Part shown: positions 134 through 41,156 of the stretch, piece by piece
Layout of the letters: each line of letters opens with the position of its first letter
How positions within the stretch are numbered: position 1 is the stretch's first letter
IMG/VR virus record: IMGVR_UViG_3300047320_000119
Coordinates: 1 to 41,156 of that record
Direction: 5' to 3' (one strand)
Source of the DNA: a virus
Length of the DNA: 41,156 nucleotides
Made by a program: the position numbers and the translations under genes
The notes under the pieces: model-generated
Told to the model about the DNA's origin: nothing
Seen by the model: only the letters and a program-made list of their open reading frames with translations
The model's database searches: none

Positions 134-577
134 GTGTTGCAGCCACCCCTGCCCGATTCAGTTCAGGAAATCGCTGACGTTATTGGTCGCGAGCGTGCGC
201 TGCTGCTCATCGGCCGCCTGCCTCGGTACTCATGCAGAGGAGCCACGAACCGTGTGCTGCTGTATGTGCCGAAGCTGGCGAATCTCACTGCAGACCACAA
301 ACTGGTCGGCATTCTGGGCCGGAGCGACGCAGAGAGGCTTTGTCGGGTGTTCGGTGGCGAGACTTTGAAGCCGGCGAACTGCGCGTTTATCTACAAGCGA
401 TACCGCGACTCGCAGATTGTGCGTCTGGCAAACGAAGGATTGGATTCACCCCGCATCTCTGAACTCATGAACGTCAGCGCGTCGCAAGTGCGCCTCATTC
501 TGCAACGCGCGCGTGCGCGTATCTCGCAGGAGGACTCGCGAAGCGGTGTTGACGAGAATGGGCCGTATACCACCTAA
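134..577 (+). CDS. Mor/C-family transcription activator
   Basis: A 147-aa protein resembling the Mor/C activators of Mu-like phages, which turn on middle or late phage promoters as DNA-binding dimers. The N-terminal part (residues about 7-45) has the usual acidic helix pattern around EIADVIG and a segment ending in YVPK. The C-terminal part (about 88-130) carries the basic helix-turn-helix, with RDSQIVRLANEG followed by ISELMNVSASQVRLIL. It is the first gene after the control region and is directly followed by lysis and terminase genes, as expected for the late switch. The listed start is GTG at 134; TTG at 137 has a better-spaced GGAG. Its 3' end holds the first copy of the repeated late-region motif. 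Confidence 0.75.
   Translation: MLQPPLPDSVQEIADVIGRERALLLIGRLPRYSCRGATNRVLLYVPKLANLTADHKLVGILGRSDAERLCRVFGGETLKPANCAFIYKRYRDSQIVRLANEGLDSPRISELMNVSASQVRLILQRARARISQEDSRSGVDENGPYTT
519..534 (+). promoter_or_regulatory. Late-region repeated motif, copy 1
   Basis: GTATCTCGCAGGAGGA, inside the 3' end of the activator gene and 59 bp before the first lysis gene. It matches four other plus-strand copies (4839, 7698, 11579, 17642), two of them intergenic. The function is inferred only: a late promoter or activator site, or an RNA-level element. Confidence 0.5.
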
Positions 578-9408: not shown

Positions 9409-9773
9409 TGCCGACTCCAGCGTGGGACAACCCCGCGGACTTCATCGACCTGGGCGATTTCGCCGTGAAAGGCGTCATCGAGTTCGTGCCGCAAGGCAAG
9501 ACTGCGCGCAATCTCGACGGCACCACGCGCGACATCACCGGCATTTTCGATGAACCGTACTTGAAGGCCGGCCTGCGCGGTGATTACGAGCTCGACTCCG
9601 AGAGTCCGCGCTTCACGTGCGTGGAAGGCTCGAGCACTGGCGCGCGCAAAGGCGACACGCTTGTCGTCTACAACTCTGACGGCAAGACGGTGTTCGGCAC
9701 CTACTCAATCATGACCAGCCCTCAGCCTGACGGCACGGGTCTCGAGACGCTCGAGCTATCGAAGCAGGACTGA
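9408..9773 (+). CDS. Head-tail joining protein, FII-like
   Basis: A 121-aa, beta-rich protein in the position of lambda gpFII, which completes the head and forms the attachment point for the tail. Visible features are an N-terminal WDNPADFIDLGDFA, a central GIFDEPYLKAGLRG and a C-terminal VVYNSDGKTVFGTYSI. Its start overlaps the upstream stop by one base (TAATG). Length matches gpFII (117 aa). Confidence 0.6.
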   Translation: MPTPAWDNPADFIDLGDFAVKGVIEFVPQGKTARNLDGTTRDITGIFDEPYLKAGLRGDYELDSESPRFTCVEGSSTGARKGDTLVVYNSDGKTVFGTYSIMTSPQPDGTGLETLELSKQD

Positions 9774-11594: not shown

Positions 11595-11625
11595 AGGTGC
11601 GCGCCGTATATCACAGAATCAAACA

Positions 11626-11964
11626 ATGAACGGCACCAACGCACAAACCGGAAAGCCGCTGGGTGGCATCGACCACCTGCGCCAGTCGATTGTCGACATC
11701 CTCACGACCCCGATTGGGTCGCGGGTGATGCGTCGCGACTATGGCAGCCAGCTGCCTGACCTGGTGGACGCGCCCACGAACTCGGAAACCACGATGGACA
11801 TGATTGCCGCCGCGGTGGACGCGCTCACCAAATGGGAGCCGCGCATCGCCCTCACCCAAGTCACTATCGCATCCGCCTCGCCGGGAGAGGTCCAGCTGAA
11901 TCTCACTGGCCAATACCTGCCGGACGGTCAAGTCGTGACATTTGACGGAATCAAAGTTAACTAA
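11626..11964 (+). CDS. W: Baseplate wedge protein, P2 gpW-like
   Basis: A 112-aa protein of the gpW/T4 gp25 baseplate wedge family, which starts sheath assembly. The conserved DHLRQSIVDILTTPIGSRVM near residues 15-34 and the RRDYGSQLPDLVD segment after it are diagnostic of this family. It is followed immediately by J with no gap. Length matches P2 gpW (115 aa). Confidence 0.9.
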   Translation: MNGTNAQTGKPLGGIDHLRQSIVDILTTPIGSRVMRRDYGSQLPDLVDAPTNSETTMDMIAAAVDALTKWEPRIALTQVTIASASPGEVQLNLTGQYLPDGQVVTFDGIKVN

Positions 11965-30287: not shown

Positions 30288-31229
30288 TCAGAACGCCTTG
30301 ATGACGCGCGGCACGCTTGTGAGCGACGGCCGCAGGTACAGACCTCCAGCGGTCGGCTCGACGTTGGCCTGTGGGTACACTTCGACTACCTGATGGAGCG
30401 CGCGCCGGACTGTTTCGCGGAACTTCTTATCGGCGGCCGCACCGGAGCCGAACTGAAGCTTGAGCGCCTCCCACGGCACCGTCGTCGGCTTGTTGAGCGC
30501 GAAGAACCGATACGTCAGGTAGCAGTACAAGTCGAGAGCCATCGGCGACTGGCGTAGCGCGCGCAGCACGCGAAGGTCAACCGGCACAGGATGCGCAATC
30601 ACTTCGTCGTAGAACCGGCCGGACAGGGTCACGGTAGACTGCCACAGGCCGGCCTGCTCCGGCTTCTGCGGGCTCCACCATAGGTTCGCATCGTCAGCGA
30701 CGTTGAACTTGCTTTGAGCGAAGTCAGCTCCGGCTGCCCCGCCTTTCACGATTGCCATGTCGGAGGCAAACAGTCGCTTCATCTGCTCGCGCAGCCTGGT
30801 GATTGAGCCTGCGGTCCCGCCTGTGTGAGACGTGATTCCTATCGAGTTCATGAACTCGCCAAGCGAGTCTCCGAGCACAAGCTCCTTCGACTTCTTCCTC
30901 ACCGCCTCGGTAGAAAGCCACGCGAGAATCAGCCTCGGCACGGTTCCGAACGGATAGCCCATGCTGACGTGCTTGTTCTCTTTCTGGTTCCAGTAGTAGC
31001 CCGGCTTGATGATGAGCGACACATCGCCAGCTGAGCGGCCCCAGGCAGGCAACTCGCGGTCGGGCTCGCGGTACGGCAGCGTAGCCTGGACCATGGCACG
31101 CGCGAGAAACCCTGCCATGCCAGCGCGTATCGCGTCTTCCTGCTCGATGGCAATGGCCTCTTCAATCAGGCGCGTCGCGACGTTCGGGCGCACCGCTTCA
31201 GCTCGACTGAATTTCTTGACTTCACCCAT
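30288..31229 (-). CDS. repA: Plasmid replication initiator, RepA_C family
   Basis: A 313-aa initiator that binds iterons and opens the plasmid origin. ATG at 31229 is chosen for its CAGGAGG site; the upstream reading to 31370 runs through iterons. The family core is clear at residues about 85-165: YPFGTVPRLILAWLSTEAVR, then KELVLGDSLGEFM, then TGGTAGSITRLREQMKRLF. The C-terminal part has a second winged-helix pattern (DLYCYLTYRFFALNK, then FRETVRRALHQVVEVYPQA). It is similar to RepA of broad-host-range plasmids such as pVS1-type replicons. The origin lies immediately upstream. Confidence 0.9.
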   Translation of the reverse strand: MGEVKKFSRAEAVRPNVATRLIEEAIAIEQEDAIRAGMAGFLARAMVQATLPYREPDRELPAWGRSAGDVSLIIKPGYYWNQKENKHVSMGYPFGTVPRLILAWLSTEAVRKKSKELVLGDSLGEFMNSIGITSHTGGTAGSITRLREQMKRLFASDMAIVKGGAAGADFAQSKFNVADDANLWWSPQKPEQAGLWQSTVTLSGRFYDEVIAHPVPVDLRVLRALRQSPMALDLYCYLTYRFFALNKPTTVPWEALKLQFGSGAAADKKFRETVRRALHQVVEVYPQANVEPTAGGLYLRPSLTSVPRVIKAF

Positions 31230-31280
31230 CACGTCCCTCCTGGAATTCGTGCGATTACACCACAGGCCGCGGCCGTTTTC

Positions 31281-31446
31281 ACGCATATGTTGGGGCGGCG
31301 TATCAGCCTGTGGATAAGGTCTGTGGACAACCTGAGTTATCCACGCATATGTTGGGGCGCTGTTACGCATATGTTGGGGCCGCTGTTACGCATATGTTGG
31401 GGCTTATCCACGCATATGTTGGGGCCGCTCACGCATATGTTGGGGC
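31281..31446. other. Plasmid origin: six direct iterons and DnaA boxes
   Basis: The unit ACGCATATGTTGGGGC is repeated exactly at 31281, 31343, 31365, 31388, 31410 and 31431. The last five are spaced 21-23 bp apart, about two helical turns. A perfect DnaA box TGTGGATAA lies at 31309-31317 and near-boxes TTATCCACG at 31338 and 31404. An AT-rich stretch follows at 31447-31540. This is the standard layout of an iteron-controlled theta origin just upstream of repA. Confidence 0.9.
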
Positions 31447-31629: not shown

Positions 31630-31781
31630 GCCCCAACATATGCGTGCGGTTACGTATCTACGGAAATACGAAGATACGTACGTACGAATCTAGGTACATA
31701 GGCGCCTGCGTAGGTGCCTATGTGTACATAATGGCCCCAACATATGCGTGATGGGGCCAGAACGCGCCCCAACATATGCGT
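31630..31781. repeat. Three inverted iterons beside parB
   Basis: GCCCCAACATATGCGT, the reverse complement of the origin iteron, occurs at 31630, 31734 and 31766. The last touches the parB stop codon. Between the first two are inverted repeats ACGTATCT/AGATACGT (about 31651-31680) and an ACATAGGC/GCCTATGT pair (about 31697-31724). The group may act as a copy-number control locus (as incA does in P1) or as part of a partition site. Confidence 0.8.
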
Positions 31782-32230
31782 TACTTGAGCCCGTGCTTTT
31801 TCTTGAGCTCCGCTACGTGCGCGCGCGTGCCGGCCACGACCATCGCAGAGAACTCGTAGCCGAGCGCCTGGAGCGTGTCCATATCGTCGAGCAGGCTTAC
31901 AGGCATGCGGTAGTTGCGCTGGAGCGTGTGTTCGCGCGCGTTGGCCTTCCGGATGGCAAGGATTTCCTGAAGGCCCATCTGGCGCTCAACAGGCTCCTCT
32001 GGAGGCGTCTCCGCTGCGGGCGCCGATTGCGGCTCAACGGCCGATGCAGGCTGTGCGGGTTCCTTAGCGGACGCCGGCGACGCCGGCTCGTTCGTTGCCG
32101 CGGGCTGGCCTTGGGAAACAACGTCGCTGGCCTTCTCCAGGTTGGCGAGCACGTCTTCCGTATTCTTGGGCCTAGCGGCGGCGTCTTTCGCTCCGATAGG
32201 TCCGCCCAACTCGGGATTTCTTCTGCTCAT
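31781..32230 (-). CDS. Small ParB-type centromere-binding protein
   Basis: A 149-aa protein following parA with an ATGA overlap. The N-terminus is basic and polar, residues about 45-82 are Pro/Ala/Glu-rich and probably disordered, and the C-terminal ~50 residues (TLQRNYRMPVSLLDDMDTLQ, then SAMVVAGTRAHVAELKKK) look like a ribbon-helix-helix DNA-binding unit as in ParG. It is too short for a classic CTPase ParB. It should bind the plasmid centromere and stimulate the ParA ATPase. Confidence 0.75.
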   Translation of the reverse strand: MSRRNPELGGPIGAKDAAARPKNTEDVLANLEKASDVVSQGQPAATNEPASPASAKEPAQPASAVEPQSAPAAETPPEEPVERQMGLQEILAIRKANAREHTLQRNYRMPVSLLDDMDTLQALGYEFSAMVVAGTRAHVAELKKKHGLK

Positions 32231-32910
32231 TTGAACACCTCCATGTACACGTCCTTCACCTCGTTTGCCGCTACCGGGTCGAACTCCGAGCCCTTCAGCT
32301 CATGCACGCCACGGCCCAGCGCGTAGCCGAACTTGAACGACTCCCGGAAGCCCACCATCGTCGGCAGCAGCGGCAACGCCTCGCTGAAGGCGCTCATTTG
32401 TCCCACGATGTACTTCGTCATGCGCTTGCGCGGGTCCGCCTGATTGAGCAGAGCGCTCAGCGCGAGGCTCTCTCCAGTGCGGTCCTCGATGCCCTGCGCC
32501 ACCTCCAGTAGCGCCGGGATGGTGTCCAGGTCCTGCATCGAAGGCGTCAAGGGCACAATCACTTTGTCTGCAAATAGAAGCGCCGCGCGGAATAGGTCGG
32601 TGTCTTGACCGCCGATGTCCAAGAACACTACGTCGAAGCCTTTGGCGAAGTCCATCACGTCGCGCGTGAAGGCATCCTTCTCCACCCTACCCTTTCCAGG
32701 TGGCGACAGGTCATCAATGTGACGTAGGTGGATTTCAGCCAAGCCGTCCTGCGCGCGACGGCGCGCGATGAACTTCGTGCTAGACGCCTGTCTATCAGCG
32801 TCATAGATGGCGACCCGGAATCCCAAAGACGCGCGGATTGCTGCCATGTTTTGGTTGAGGGTCGACTTGCCCACCCCTCCCTTTTCTGCTCCAACCATGA
32901 CTATGGTCAT
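32227..32910 (-). CDS. parA: ParA-type partition ATPase
   Basis: A 227-aa Walker-type ATPase for plasmid segregation. The deviant Walker A KGGVGKST is at residues 10-17, followed by AIYDADRQASS near 34-44. FDVVFLDIGGQDTDLFR near 90-106 is the switch II region. It lacks an N-terminal regulatory domain, so it is the short (type Ib) form that pairs with a small centromere-binding protein, as found here. AGGAG lies seven bases before ATG. Confidence 0.92.
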   Translation of the reverse strand: MTIVMVGAEKGGVGKSTLNQNMAAIRASLGFRVAIYDADRQASSTKFIARRRAQDGLAEIHLRHIDDLSPPGKGRVEKDAFTRDVMDFAKGFDVVFLDIGGQDTDLFRAALLFADKVIVPLTPSMQDLDTIPALLEVAQGIEDRTGESLALSALLNQADPRKRMTKYIVGQMSAFSEALPLLPTMVGFRESFKFGYALGRGVHELKGSEFDPVAANEVKDVYMEVFK

Positions 32911-33658: not shown

Positions 33659-34813
33659 TTATCCCTCGATTGCTTCAGCGACGGCTTCGTCGGCGAGCAC
33701 GCGCAGGCTGAACTCGTCTTTGAGCTTGTGCTTCGAGTACCAACCCTTCACGTCAGGTTCGCCGCCGGTGAAGAGCGTCATCATCAGGCCGAACAGCGGG
33801 GCGCCTTTGTGCTTCAGCGCGAACGCCTTGCGGTCCAGGTGCTGGTCTGCGGTGACGGCATCCTCGATGTCGAGCATGACTTCGAGCAGGCGGCCAACCA
33901 GGCGCTTCTCAACCGCATTCACTTCTGTCAGGTCGACGCCGGCTTCAACCAGCACGGCCTTCAGGTCGTCGAGCTCCTCGTTGATAGCACTCAGCGCAAT
34001 GTCTCGCTCGCGCAGGAACGTGATGCTCCGGTGCAGCCGGTTGTACCAGGGGCACTTGAGCTTCACCATGTCGCCGTTGGCATACTGGAGGATGAAGCCT
34101 TCCTGTCCTTCCATGTTCTCCAGCTTGGCGAGCAGCTCGTCGATGGTCGCGAGCGGGTAGCGGGGAGCCATCGGGATGTTATCCAGCTTGATAAGCGCGC
34201 GGACGCCTGGCGACGATTCGGTGACGTACTTACCAGTTTGGTTGTCGCGCACGTGCAGCAGGCGCAGCTGCGGCTGGTCCTGAGCCACGACGATGCGCGC
34301 GTCCGGATGCGTGAGCTCGAAAATGGCGGTCATATCGTTCCGTGCGACTACCGCAGCGAACGTCAGGATGTCCTCGTTCTCCGGCAATGCGAGAAACGCT
34401 TCAGTGAGCTTTACGACCGATGAATCGAATACTTTCTTCGAGCGAAACGCCAGTGTGCCGCCGCCCCAGGTGCCGTTGTTCCAAGTGCCGCCTACTAAGG
34501 CAGTGGCAATCATCGAGCCGTCGAGCTTCTCGAACACAGCGACAAGGTCGTCACGCTTGCGCAGTGCATCGAGCGACACCGACTCGTTCTCGCCGGCATT
34601 GAAGAACTTGTGCAGCGGCCGGGAGCATACGCGGCCGTCGGGGCCGAACGCGATGCCGCGGCATTCAACGGCTTCAGGCGAGTCGAACGTGTGCGAGTCG
34701 GCGAACAGATAGCAGCCCATCGTGACGCCGTTCGGCATGGTGCGGAAGCGGATTTCTTTCTTGTCTGCAACGAACGGACGAACGTCGTCAATCGTCTCGA
34801 TTACTTTGAACAT
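33659..34813 (-). CDS. T4 Rnl1-type RNA ligase
   Basis: A 384-aa ATP-dependent RNA ligase (T4 Rnl1 is 374 aa). The nucleotidyl-transferase motif I is K96-LDGS, with K96 the adenylated lysine. Motif III is IFE at about 164-166, motif IV is EGFIL at 238-242 and motif V is KLK at 251-253. N-terminal VECRGIAFGPDGRV matches the region before motif I in Rnl1. Such enzymes seal broken tRNAs, for example after host anticodon nucleases act. No polynucleotide kinase partner is seen in this element. GGAG lies nine bases before ATG. Confidence 0.88.
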   Translation of the reverse strand: MFKVIETIDDVRPFVADKKEIRFRTMPNGVTMGCYLFADSHTFDSPEAVECRGIAFGPDGRVCSRPLHKFFNAGENESVSLDALRKRDDLVAVFEKLDGSMIATALVGGTWNNGTWGGGTLAFRSKKVFDSSVVKLTEAFLALPENEDILTFAAVVARNDMTAIFELTHPDARIVVAQDQPQLRLLHVRDNQTGKYVTESSPGVRALIKLDNIPMAPRYPLATIDELLAKLENMEGQEGFILQYANGDMVKLKCPWYNRLHRSITFLRERDIALSAINEELDDLKAVLVEAGVDLTEVNAVEKRLVGRLLEVMLDIEDAVTADQHLDRKAFALKHKGAPLFGLMMTLFTGGEPDVKGWYSKHKLKDEFSLRVLADEAVAEAIEG

Positions 34814-36884: not shown

Positions 36885-39260
36885 TTAGATGGGCAGGCCG
36901 TCGTCTTCGTCGCGGTATCCACTGCGGAGCATCGGAGGCATGTCGAACACGCGGCGGCCACAGGACTTGCGCGACTCTTTGCCCGTCAGACGGCGCAGGA
37001 TGGTGCCCATATCGTCCCGTTGCTGTTTCGTCGGCGTGAGGTAGCCAATCTGCTCGAGCACGTCCGTCGGTGTGAGGGCGGCGACACGGTTCGCTGCAGA
37101 CCAGTCGAAGCGCGACAGCACCTTCTCCTCGAGGGGGTCGACCTTTTCGTGCTCGCGGTTGCTCATCTCGAGTCGCGCCTCTTCATCCGGCTCAAGCCAC
37201 CACTGCTCACCGCCCTCTACGAGCTCCGCGACTTCAGCCCACAGCTGCTGCATGTCGATGCTGTGTCGGAAGTTCACTGCGATGACAGGCAGTGTCCACC
37301 AGCGCACGTTGCCGGTGTCGTCGGCCAGGAAGTTCTTCGGGTTCACGCTCGCGAAGAACACCGTGCGACGCTTGTACGTCGACTCCAGGCGGTCATACGG
37401 GCGGCGCAGCTGGTCGATGTCCTGGCTGATAAAAGCCTTCAGACGCGCGATGTCGGCTTTGCGGAACGTGCTGTCCAGTTCGCCCAGCTCGACCATCCAG
37501 TGCCCGATAGCAGAGCTGATGGTGTCTTTGTTCGCCGGGTCGACGAGCGCGCCTACTTTCAGCAGGTCACGGTTCACTTCAGGCACCAGCGCCATGAACC
37601 AGGCCGTCTTACCAATCGACTGCCCGCCCTGGAGGACCAGCACGCCCTTGCTGCGGAAGTTCGGTTTGATGACGGCAGCCGCGGCGGAGAGGAGCCAGCG
37701 GCGCACGAGCAACTTCATGAAGTCGCGGTCGAAGCCCGGCGCGAGCGTGAGCGTCTCATACAGCGCATCGAGCCGCGACACGCCATCCCACGGTTTGGAC
37801 TCAATCAGCTCGCGCGCCGGGTTGAATTTGTTTTTGTCGCCGATGAGCTTCAGGTGCAAGTCTGTGTCAGCCTTCGGCATGCCGTTGCGGGCGCACAGCG
37901 TGTTGATTTCAGCGAGCGCGCAGTTCGCTGCCGTGTCTTCGTCATAGCTCCGGCCGGGGATGGTGACGATGACGTCTTTCTTCACGACGTTGTAGCGCGC
38001 CGTGATGCCGTACACGTCGAGCATCTCTTTGAGGTTTTGCCATGTGTTGAGCGGGCGGTCCTTTTCAGAGCGGTCAGGGAACACGCCGGTCGCCAGCGCG
38101 TCCAGGTCGTCGACGAGCTTGTAGGCCTTCGCCGGTGCGGTAGCGGCCGGAGCGGTGCCAATGACAGCGATGTGGTGCGACGACTCGTCGAACGACGGGC
38201 CGCCGGCGACGATGGTTTCAGTAGCGCCCTCATGCGATGTCAGGTAGCCGAGCATGCGCTCTGCGTCCCAGCCGTCCGCCTTGCCGTCTGCCAGGTCCCA
38301 GCCCGGTTCGAATTCGCCCGGCACATAGCCGACCATGGTCGTGTTTGCTGCGACGCCGTTCAGGCTGTTGGCGATGTTGTTCATTGCGATGATTCCGGGT
38401 TGTTTTTCGAGCTGCAGAACTTCGCCAGTTGCTTTGTCGACTTGCGCGTCGAAGTCGGGCCACAGCACGACGAGGCGGCCAGCGAGCGGGCTCACATCGA
38501 CTTTGTCTGATGCCGGCACGCCGTTGAGCCAGGTCACGACGACAGCACGGGTGCCCACGATGGCTTGCGCTGCATCAGCGGCCTTTTCGCCTTCGACGAC
38601 GATGACATCCTGGTTCGGGTGTTGCGCCAGGCGCTCGATGCCGTAGAGCGGGCGGGGCGTGTCGCCAGTGATACCGACCCAGTCCCAGCCTGCAGGGGCG
38701 TTGTCTTTGCGCTTGTCGCACCACGTGTACGGGCGGATTTGCTTGCGGTCGCCGGGGTTCTTCGGGTCGAAGCGGCACACATACATCAGCACGTTGCCGG
38801 CGGCGTCGCGATACGTCCAGACGGTGTCAGGCTTAGCGCGAAGACCTTCGTGATAGAACGTGGGCTCAGTAGCGTGAGCGGGCACCGGAAGGACCGGTAC
38901 CGACCGGTTCTCGTCGATTGCGCGAGCCTTCTGAGCCACGGCTTCGACGCCAGCTTTGCGAGTCACGGCGTTCAACGTGATGCCGTTGTTTTCGGAGAGC
39001 TCGCGGGCGGCTTCACCTTGCTTCATTCCATGGAGGTAGGCGTACAGGCTAATCATGTCGCTGCCGGAGTCTTTCGTTGCAAAGTCCGACCAGACGCCCG
39101 TCTTCAGATTGATGCTGAAGCTGCCGGCCTCGCTGTCGCCGCGCGTCGGGTTCGGCGCTACCCATTCGCTGTTGCGACGCTTGCCGTCGGGCAGCCACAT
39201 CGGTACTACGACTTCCGGGTTGAGGCTGGACTTGATTACTGCGAAATCTGCTTTTTGCAT
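36885..39260 (-). CDS. Primase/VirE-type helicase replication protein
   Basis: A 791-aa two-part replication protein. The N-terminal part has a primase-like start (GSFSINLKTGVWSDFATKDSG near 46-66) and a Toprim core with VIVVEGEKAADA at 219-230 and VVLWPDFD at 264-271. The C-terminal part is a VirE/VapE-type helicase ATPase: Walker A GGQSIGKT at 545-552, Walker B near WMVELGELD at 588-596, and RRTVFFASVNPKNFL near 631-645. Such enzymes start and drive phage DNA synthesis. The element thus has a lytic replicase separate from repA. No strong ribosome site precedes the ATG. Confidence 0.88.
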   Translation of the reverse strand: MQKADFAVIKSSLNPEVVVPMWLPDGKRRNSEWVAPNPTRGDSEAGSFSINLKTGVWSDFATKDSGSDMISLYAYLHGMKQGEAARELSENNGITLNAVTRKAGVEAVAQKARAIDENRSVPVLPVPAHATEPTFYHEGLRAKPDTVWTYRDAAGNVLMYVCRFDPKNPGDRKQIRPYTWCDKRKDNAPAGWDWVGITGDTPRPLYGIERLAQHPNQDVIVVEGEKAADAAQAIVGTRAVVVTWLNGVPASDKVDVSPLAGRLVVLWPDFDAQVDKATGEVLQLEKQPGIIAMNNIANSLNGVAANTTMVGYVPGEFEPGWDLADGKADGWDAERMLGYLTSHEGATETIVAGGPSFDESSHHIAVIGTAPAATAPAKAYKLVDDLDALATGVFPDRSEKDRPLNTWQNLKEMLDVYGITARYNVVKKDVIVTIPGRSYDEDTAANCALAEINTLCARNGMPKADTDLHLKLIGDKNKFNPARELIESKPWDGVSRLDALYETLTLAPGFDRDFMKLLVRRWLLSAAAAVIKPNFRSKGVLVLQGGQSIGKTAWFMALVPEVNRDLLKVGALVDPANKDTISSAIGHWMVELGELDSTFRKADIARLKAFISQDIDQLRRPYDRLESTYKRRTVFFASVNPKNFLADDTGNVRWWTLPVIAVNFRHSIDMQQLWAEVAELVEGGEQWWLEPDEEARLEMSNREHEKVDPLEEKVLSRFDWSAANRVAALTPTDVLEQIGYLTPTKQQRDDMGTILRRLTGKESRKSCGRRVFDMPPMLRSGYRDEDDGLPI

Positions 39261-39314: not shown

Positions 39315-39509
39315 TTACTGCGTGCGGGCTGCGACGGTGAGCTCGAGAACGCGGAACGCATGCTCAGGAATCACCTGCTTGCGCGCGTTGTCGCTGCGCC
39401 AGATGCGGACCGTCTGATTGCTGCGGCCGAGGATTTCCGACACGTCAGCGATGCTCAGCTGTTTGTCGGCCATGAATGTGAGCAGGCGCTCTGTGCTGGG
39501 GTGAATCAT
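39315..39509 (-). CDS. Small HTH regulator, paralog 1
   Basis: A 64-aa protein with start ATG at 39509 after CCGGAG. A helix-turn-helix spans about 15-40 (LSIADVSEILGRSNQTVRIW), followed by EHAFRVLELTV. It is clearly homologous to the 60-aa protein at 39792-39974. It precedes the primase gene and has its own family-type promoter. It is a candidate Cro/repressor-type switch protein. Confidence 0.75.
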   Translation of the reverse strand: MIHPSTERLLTFMADKQLSIADVSEILGRSNQTVRIWRSDNARKQVIPEHAFRVLELTVAARTQ

Positions 39510-39535
39510 TGATGTTACTCCGGTTGGTAAGGGTT

Positions 39536-39601
39536 CGTATAGTGTGTAATGCGCTGTTTGCATCACACAACGAAGTATAACGTAAAATGCACGTCTGTCG
39601 A
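39536..39601 (-). promoter_or_regulatory. Promoter pair for HTH regulator 1
   Basis: The upstream unit on the minus strand is TCGACA (complement of 39596-39601), 16 bp with CATTTTACG, TATACT (complement of 39574-39579). A second, weaker unit ATGCAA/TATACG (complement of 39558-39563 and 39536-39541) lies nearer the gene. Two promoters in tandem suggest layered control. Confidence 0.6.
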
Positions 39602-39791: not shown

Positions 39792-39974
39792 TTACTTGCT
39801 GCGTGACTCGATGGTCAGCTCGAGCACGCGCAGCGCGTCGGCGGGTATGACCTGGTTGTCGCAGCGCCAGATTCGAACCGTCTGCGGCGCGCGGCCCAGG
39901 ATTTCAGCGACATCGGCGACTTCGAGCCGGTGCTGTTCCATCAGTTCGAGCAGGCGCTGCGTGCGTTCGTTCAT
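39792..39974 (-). CDS. Small HTH regulator, paralog 2
   Basis: A 60-aa protein with a helix-turn-helix at about 16-38 (LEVADVAEILGRAPQTVRIW) and the same C-terminal ADALRVLELTI as its paralog. It stands alone between two terminators. Its promoter region carries a perfect 16-bp palindrome, so it may be self-regulated. It is a candidate immunity repressor, though short for one. Confidence 0.75.
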   Translation of the reverse strand: MNERTQRLLELMEQHRLEVADVAEILGRAPQTVRIWRCDNQVIPADALRVLELTIESRSK

Positions 39975-40769: not shown

Positions 40770-41056
40770 CTCGAGGGACAAGAGGGACAACGGAGGGACA
40801 ACGAAAGGGACAACGTTGTCCCTCGAGAACACCGCTTATTTAAAGGCTCTTTTCCTCAAAAATGGGTCAATAGGGACAAGAGGGACAACGTTATACAAAG
40901 TAGTAATGTATCTATAGAAAACCTATAGGTCCTATAGGATTGCCAGTAGCTTGTCCCTCTTGTCCCTATTGCAGCAATATTTCCAAAAAGAGGCTTCTCT
41001 GCCTCGAGTTTTCGGAGGGACAACGTTGTCCCTCGTTGTCCCTCGTTGTCCCTCGA
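40770..41056. repeat. GGGACAA repeat array with perfect palindromes
   Basis: Thirteen copies of GGGACAA or its complement lie between 40775 and 41052. Forward copies: 40775, 40784, 40795, 40807, 40873, 40882, 41017. Reverse copies: 40816, 40951, 40960, 41026, 41036, 41046. They build an 18-bp palindrome (40806-40823), a 20-bp palindrome GAGGGACAACGTTGTCCCTC (41015-41034) and a 21-bp inverted repeat (40868-40888 with 40951-40971) around an AT-rich core with CCTATAGG twice. It is noncoding. Candidate lytic origin, centromere or operator cluster. Confidence 0.85.
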
Positions 41057-41156
41057 GCGGCTCTGAACTAGCACATTCCTGAAGGCCCACCTATTTCAAA
41101 CTTGCTTTGGCATTTTACATAATAAACACTATACTATTGGTATTGACAAAACCATT
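41030..41156. repeat. Terminal direct repeat, right copy
   Basis: Exact copy of 1-127. It shows that the sequence closes on itself. It carries the last TTGTCCC units of the array and the promoter of the Mor-like activator. Confidence 0.95.

Follow-up and report, generated by a model that had tools for sequence, protein, structure and literature searches.

A GGGACAA repeat array as the probable replication origin of a tailed phage encoding a VapE-type primase-helicase

The window, i.e. the whole stretch of 41,156 nucleotides analysed here (IMG/VR virus record IMGVR_UViG_3300047320_000119), corresponds to a circularly assembled molecule of 41,029 bp which has been cut within an array of short repeats, and it carries a 127-base direct repeat at its ends. 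Since 127 is a common assembler word length, this terminal repeat probably arose during assembly rather than marking a true end of the genome and, because the circle is cut inside the array, the number of repeat units could be a collapsed count. The array is located between divergent genes, with two HTH genes and a primase-helicase gene on its left (minus strand) and a Mor-like gene on its right (plus strand), while the long ORFs of the window, not all of which are annotated, fit a head-tail gene order. The relevant features are the following:

1–27: end of the array seen again, bases 1–127 being identical to 41030–41156
134–577, plus strand: Mor-like late activator gene adjoining the array, whose upstream region is the syntenic array place in relatives
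36885–39260, minus strand: VapE-type SF3 primase-helicase of 791 aa (PF05272, E 7.5e-48), proposed array-binding initiator
36939–37082, minus strand: predicted C-terminal winged helix of the primase, about residues 727–774 (AlphaFold2 model, mean pLDDT 92.3)
36948–36968, minus strand: codons of primase residues 765–771 (KSCGRRV), the predicted beta-wing tracking the iteron unit
39315–39566, minus strand: small HTH protein of 83 aa, between primase and array
39792–39974, minus strand: small HTH protein of 60 aa, between primase and array
40775–41052: whole array, proposed replication origin, with 13 exact units, 7 left and 6 right of the centre
40775–40888: left iteron set, with plus units at 40775, 40784, 40795, 40807, 40873 and 40882, a minus unit at 40816 and a degenerate plus unit at 40864
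40806–40823: 18-bp perfect palindrome of two units
40868–40971: 21-bp inverted repeat, with arms 40868–40888 and 40951–40971
40889–40950: AT-rich centre, putative melting site, with CCTATAGG at 40922 and 40931
40951–41052: right iteron set, with minus units at 40951, 40960, 41026, 41036 and 41046 and a plus unit at 41017
41015–41034: 20-bp perfect palindrome of two units
41107–41135, plus strand: promoter-like site between the array and the Mor-like gene (TTGGCA-17-TATACT, a consensus match only)

An exact motif search recovered the 13 GGGACAA/TTGTCCC units which the original prediction, made from the letters alone, had counted, in addition to the degenerate unit, GGGTCAA, at 40864–40870. The two palindromes, the inverted repeat and the AT-rich centre containing CCTATAGG were likewise found as it had described them. 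Over the whole window, GGGACAA occurs 17 times in exact form against 3.74 expected, and at least 17 copies were reached in 0 of 100 shuffles; the matches at 7–13 and 17–23 are the same DNA as 41036–41052 because the terminal bases are repeated, and lone heptamers outside the array are located at 9424 and 32398. In the 750 bp preceding the Mor-like gene, a de novo k-mer test returned AGGGACA 13 times, with a corrected E of 2.5e-20. The units, spaced by 9–12 bp, mostly point rightward in the left set and leftward in the right set. Around a symmetry axis at 40919.5, four pairs of units are exactly mirrored, the next two pairs are off by 2–3 bp and the first unit is unmirrored. The centre has an A+T content of 64.5%, compared with 40.2% for the window.

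A second candidate replicon is found on the same molecule. It covers 30288–31446 and 31630–31782 and consists of a RepA_C-type initiator (PF04796) with its own iterons, namely three 17-bp CACGCATATGTTGGGGC copies beside the gene at 31387–31446 and three inverted copies beyond at 31630–31782, and the phage is therefore probably a phage-plasmid. A ParA/MipZ-like ATPase is encoded at 32227–32910, for which no ParB partner was identified in the window by Pfam-level annotation, and a T4 Rnl1-like RNA ligase at 33659–34813 (PF09511, E 1.3e-25).

The distribution of the array was investigated by scanning IMG/VR viral contigs for the pattern GGGACAA-GGGACAA-TTGTCCC (two direct units and one inverted). 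At least 119 stretches carry it, against 5 for a reversed-heptamer control, and all 119 listed array stretches were analysed. Unbiased clustering of the ORFs near the arrays revealed, among the matches listed, one dominant family of 91 loci including the window, at a median distance of 12 bp. Single-linkage clustering had merged two helicase classes in this family, which Pfam searches on 10 members and separate profiles resolved into VapE-like SF3 helicases (PF05272) and RecA-fold helicases (PF13481, often with Prim-Pol PF09250). With one profile per helicase domain, the RecA-fold helicase was found in 69 of the 119 listed stretches, the VapE helicase in 16 and neither in 34, many of the latter (29 were inspected) being cut by a contig end or having three units within a coding ORF. 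A hexameric-helicase gene is thus present in 85 of the 119 listed stretches, at a median of 12 bp from the array. Among the matches listed, the array is located at the 3′ end of this gene in 82 of 85 loci (66 of 69 for the RecA-fold class and 16 of 16 other loci for VapE) and, once the 85 loci are reduced to 44 clusters at 70% identity, in 42 of them. Neither helicase was found in any of the 5 control loci. The original prediction had named a family of mobile repeats at many unrelated chromosomal sites as the case that would overturn it; among the viral contigs listed, the arrays sit instead at helicase genes. Its suggestion that the same array should be sought beside VirE-type primases was well aimed: arrays do occur there, and, unexpectedly, most of those listed go with the different PF13481 helicase class.

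AlphaFold2 modeling of primase residues 394–791, with 63 relatives, gave a model with a mean pLDDT of 92.3 and a pTM of 0.83. Residues 765–771 are predicted to form part of a hairpin (model strands 371–373 and 376–381) which follows a helix (352–366), i.e. the wing of a winged helix. The best solved match of the model is 7pds ("PriRep1 with dsDNA", molecule "Similar to D. nodosus vapE"), with a Z score of 26.7 and an rmsd of 5.2 over 379 aligned residues at 19% identity, followed by the SaPI5 primase-helicase (Z 12.5).

Among named phages, the closest is Burkholderia phage Mica (36% of a 3.2-kb query at 65% DNA identity), whose primase matches that of the window at 48% over 99%. Upstream of the Mor-like gene, the same layout of two unit sets flanking an AT-rich centre is found in Mica, Persinger, PPpW-3, ep3, Arya and several contigs. 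The unit itself varies: GGTGACAA in Mica, GGTGAC[CT]A in ep3 and Arya, GTGACCA in Persinger, GGGAC[ACT]A in PPpW-3 and the contigs L132 and L096, GGGACAA in the window and, in contig L134, which has the closest Mor-like protein (69%), 12 copies of GGTGACGAA. Among kin, the layout is thus conserved and a dozen unit copies change in concert. Among 80 close primase loci (L130–L209), GGGACAA arrays occur in almost none, and the possibility that the array simply tracks the primase family of the window was rejected, the unit varying among close primase loci at constant layout. In some close relatives, e.g. Mano (L009) and L161, the region preceding the Mor-like gene shows no clear array. The records examined of Mica, Persinger and PPpW-3 (the latter two Pseudomonas phages), ep3 and ECO1230-10 (Escherichia), Arya (Enterobacter) and KA2-1 (Klebsiella) contain no origin annotation; their origin-like regions share the place and layout of the window array, with a mostly different unit. 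In PPpW-3, tandem GGGACGCAGCC/GGGCCGCAGCC repeats are also present at 11600–11780 of its locus L007, in a coding region, and are unrelated to the iterons.

Which residues of the primase follow the unit was examined on loci with a Mor-like match (114, of which 3 were too short), 56 of them unit-labelled, including one-contig duplicates and a few weak labels. The tree comprises 31 primases: those of the 29 array loci with a primase, that of PPpW-3, labelled by hand as its 4 GGGAC units fall below the threshold of 5, and that of L147, for which the L217 array from the same contig was used. For L220 and L151, whose de novo tests were weak (E 0.45 and 0.06), the labels come from core counts. This tree requires at least 8 changes between GGGAC and GTGAC, 6 of them forced by starred branches. 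The association (phi) of each primase column with the label was then calculated on the 26 rows so labelled. Among 725 columns scanned, the eight strongest features are located at residues 765–771 (numbering of the window primase), and the best run of seven columns is 763–769, with a score of 0.657 against 0.368 for the best elsewhere. When labels were simulated on the tree with 7–10 changes, the score of this run was reached in 0 of 1000 trials and that of the top column in 2 of 1000; label shuffles ignoring the tree reached the top column in 1 of 1000. GGGAC rows typically read K-S-G-S-[RK] and GTGAC rows [RK]-T-[KA]-x-G, with exceptions; the wing of the window, KSCGR, departs from the KSGSR of other GGGAC rows.

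Supported branches provide 6 independent pairs, with a median sign-test p of 0.06, and at residue 767 trait and label agree in an average of 5.4 pairs and disagree in 0. With 6 pairs, the sign test is weak by itself and the argument is carried by the localisation of the signal. A simpler rule, K765 for GGG and R765 for GTG, was also considered: from 62 loci, 25 without a clear repeat and 8 with neither or both words were set aside, and the remaining 29 gave word/residue counts of G/K 18, G/R 3, T/R 6, T/K 1 and T/T 1 (Fisher p 0.0014 on 28, with 3–4 independent pairs, the loci being those that had suggested the rule). This rule was rejected, as it fails in ep3, Arya, ECOO78 and KA2-1, which have K with GGTGAC.

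Four named phages were fetched after the wing rule had been set, and the three with an array agree with it. ECO1230-10 has the wing RKSGSN and TGGGACTA units (GGGAC 11 versus GTGAC 1), while its genus mates, ep3 among them, have GGTGAC. KA2-1 combines the wing RKSKNG with 12 copies of GGTGAC; residues 767 and 769 fit the rule, whereas 765 or 766 alone mispredict the unit. Alexa, with the wing KRSNGK, has 8 copies of AGTGCA, as in other RSNG wings. No array was found in phiWae15. Separately, the loci L249, L267, L243, L237, L264 and L278 have the words GGTTACA, AGGGTAG, AGTGTAG, GGTACAC and GGGTACA upstream of their Mor-like genes, with KSNG or RSNG wings where these could be read.

On this evidence, we consider it very probable that the array is an iteron replication origin which the phage's own VapE-type primase-helicase uses. 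The array and its layout, the linkage to helicase genes over many phages, the concerted switching of units and the co-variation of the C-terminal wing with them are evident from sequence comparison. The original prediction had listed a lytic origin for the primase-helicase among three possible roles, and this role is now strongly supported by the helicase linkage, the wing co-variation and the newly fetched phages; that the origin serves the lytic cycle is, like direct binding, melting and a bidirectional start, inferred. GC skew, which had been proposed as a check, is dominated by gene strand in the window, from which no clean origin signature could be separated.

Four other readings were considered. 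The array could be an operator cluster, its units being bound by the Mor-like activator or the HTH proteins in order to control the switch to late genes, much as the original prediction had envisaged with its lysis-lysogeny operator. The position of the array immediately ahead of a promoter-like site and the Mor-like gene, the palindromic units, which suit dimeric regulators, and the HTH relatives present in 30 of the 31 tree loci all fit such a role. However, relatives of the Mor-like protein occur in only 3 of the 119 listed array loci and those of each HTH protein in 1, and the residues of these proteins do not track the unit (maximal scores of 0.339 for Mor-like and 0.275 for HTH, against 0.657 for the primase). 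As the main role, an operator is thus very unlikely, although the array may secondarily influence the promoter of the Mor-like gene next to it. Alternatively, the motif could be a host-factor site or a primase start site common to many replicons, to which the helicase is merely linked. A shared third party would explain why the same unit occurs with two helicase classes of unrelated folds, and the primase of SCCmec preferentially initiates at its iterons (PMC7581432); yet the units switch between close relatives along with the helicase's own wing residues, and the hosts are diverse, which makes this reading highly improbable. A centromere (parS) for the ParA, also raised by the original prediction, would suit a likely phage-plasmid with both ParA and RepA, but ParA relatives are found in 0 of the 119 listed array loci and in 1 of 94 Mor loci, the array is 8 kb from parA and no ParB was identified in the window, so that we give it almost no credence. 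Finally, RepA belongs to the iteron-type initiators, but the array is just as unlikely to be an additional RepA iteron set, since RepA's own 17-bp iterons adjoin its gene and differ from the GGGACAA units, as had been noted at the outset, and RepA relatives occur in 0 of the 119 listed array loci and 0 of 94 Mor loci.

If the array is the origin of the primase-helicase, initiation could proceed as follows. The enzyme would bind each GGGACAA unit via its C-terminal winged-helix domain, with beta-wing residues 765–769 reading part of the unit. The two unit sets would load two helicase rings that flank the AT-rich centre; the centre would melt, and the rings would then unwind outward, synthesis being primed by the enzyme or by the host. 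Maintenance as a plasmid would fall to the separate RepA replicon. Lying beside a late-activator gene, the array might in addition link replication with late transcription.

An iteron origin used by a self-loading helicase is of a known kind. In SaPI Rep and SCCmec Cch2, the C-terminal domain binds iterons (PMC7581432), and in PICI origins an AT-rich region is flanked by two iteron sets (PMC6092414). The SaPI/PICI pri-rep-ori systems described there thus share with the window a self-loading primase-helicase with a C-terminal DNA-binding domain and two iteron sets around an AT-rich region, and PriRep1 is the best structural match to the window primase. Similarly, the window encodes, in the same element, a cognate hexameric helicase with such a domain (PF05272, predicted winged helix, 7pds match). 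In contrast to these satellites, which lack late genes of their own, the window is a full tailed phage, as is its nearest named relative, Mica, and its unit is GGGACAA. Its array is also not directly 3′ of the helicase gene but 5′, 1.5 kb off and beyond the two HTH genes, with none 3′ of the gene. L134 shares this arrangement, and the early module was therefore probably inverted in the lineage of these two phages. The SCCmec Cch2 origin, in which the helicase C-terminal domain binds direct repeats beside its gene, is similar in principle but has three AAGTG units and a D5-type helicase and is not from a phage (PMC7581432).

Satellite phage P4 (alpha/crr) also combines a primase-helicase with iterons. 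P4 needs two separate sites, ori and crr, while the window has one array, the heptamers at 9424 and 32398 being single. The P4 type I iteron, which we take to be GGTGAACAGA, resembles the GGTGAC units of the window's relatives.

The RecA-fold class offers a second comparison. Rhizobium phages 16-3 and RHph_X2_25 likewise have an array 3′ of the helicase gene, with 13–14 units of GCGTGACA, but unlike that of the window their helicase is of the RecA fold (PF13481, RSF1010 RepA-like). A model of the RecA-fold helicase of L051 (pLDDT 85.6) matches RSF1010 RepA (1nlf) and ends in a helix-helix-hairpin domain. In the group related to phage 16-3, the helix preceding the hairpin has FQR where the units are (C)GGGACAA and FNR where they are GCGTGACA. 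This comparison covers 20 rows including near-copies, 9 being FQR/GGGACAA and 3 FNR/GCGTGACA (two of these being phage 16-3), with L327 and L328 placed near 16-3 by eye on the C-terminus. The FQR/GGGACAA pairing does not cover all GGGACAA loci of the class, and the idea that this residue names the unit is suggestive only.

More generally, self-loading phage helicases might carry a readable origin code, in which a five-residue wing (VapE) or a recognition-helix residue (RecA-fold; FQR for GGGACAA, FNR for GCGTGACA) names the unit. Helicase and whole array would switch together repeatedly, giving incompatibility types among close relatives, and two superfamilies would have reached GGGACAA independently; we regard this broader proposal as evenly balanced. 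No description of the GGGACAA unit as a phage origin was found in the literature searched, which included few subscription journals, and what is new, within the limits of these searches, is the unit, its occurrence in phages of two helicase folds, the joint switching of its copies and the wing that follows it. Sequence rarely reveals the origin of a tailed phage. If the origin reading is correct, the origin of hundreds of phages could be located from the end of a single gene, its unit predicted from a few residues, and the concerted change in specificity of an initiator and a dozen repeats tested with natural pairs (ep3/ECO1230-10; window/L134). In addition, an organisation described as unique to PICI satellites would extend to full phages, and two helicase folds would use one repeat word.

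Further VapE phages were also inspected around their helicase genes. No array was found at the VapE gene of Croceibacter phage P2559Y. In the actinobacterial Corynebacterium phage SamW (L312, 4370–4790), GGGACAA occurs 7 times directly 3′ of the VapE helicase gene. Other array words, GGTAAACG, GGATAC and TGTTGACA, are located just 3′ of the helicase gene in VapE phages of Bacteroides, Enterococcus and Listeria (L311, 4370–4690; L313, 4350–4720; L315, 4360–4720).
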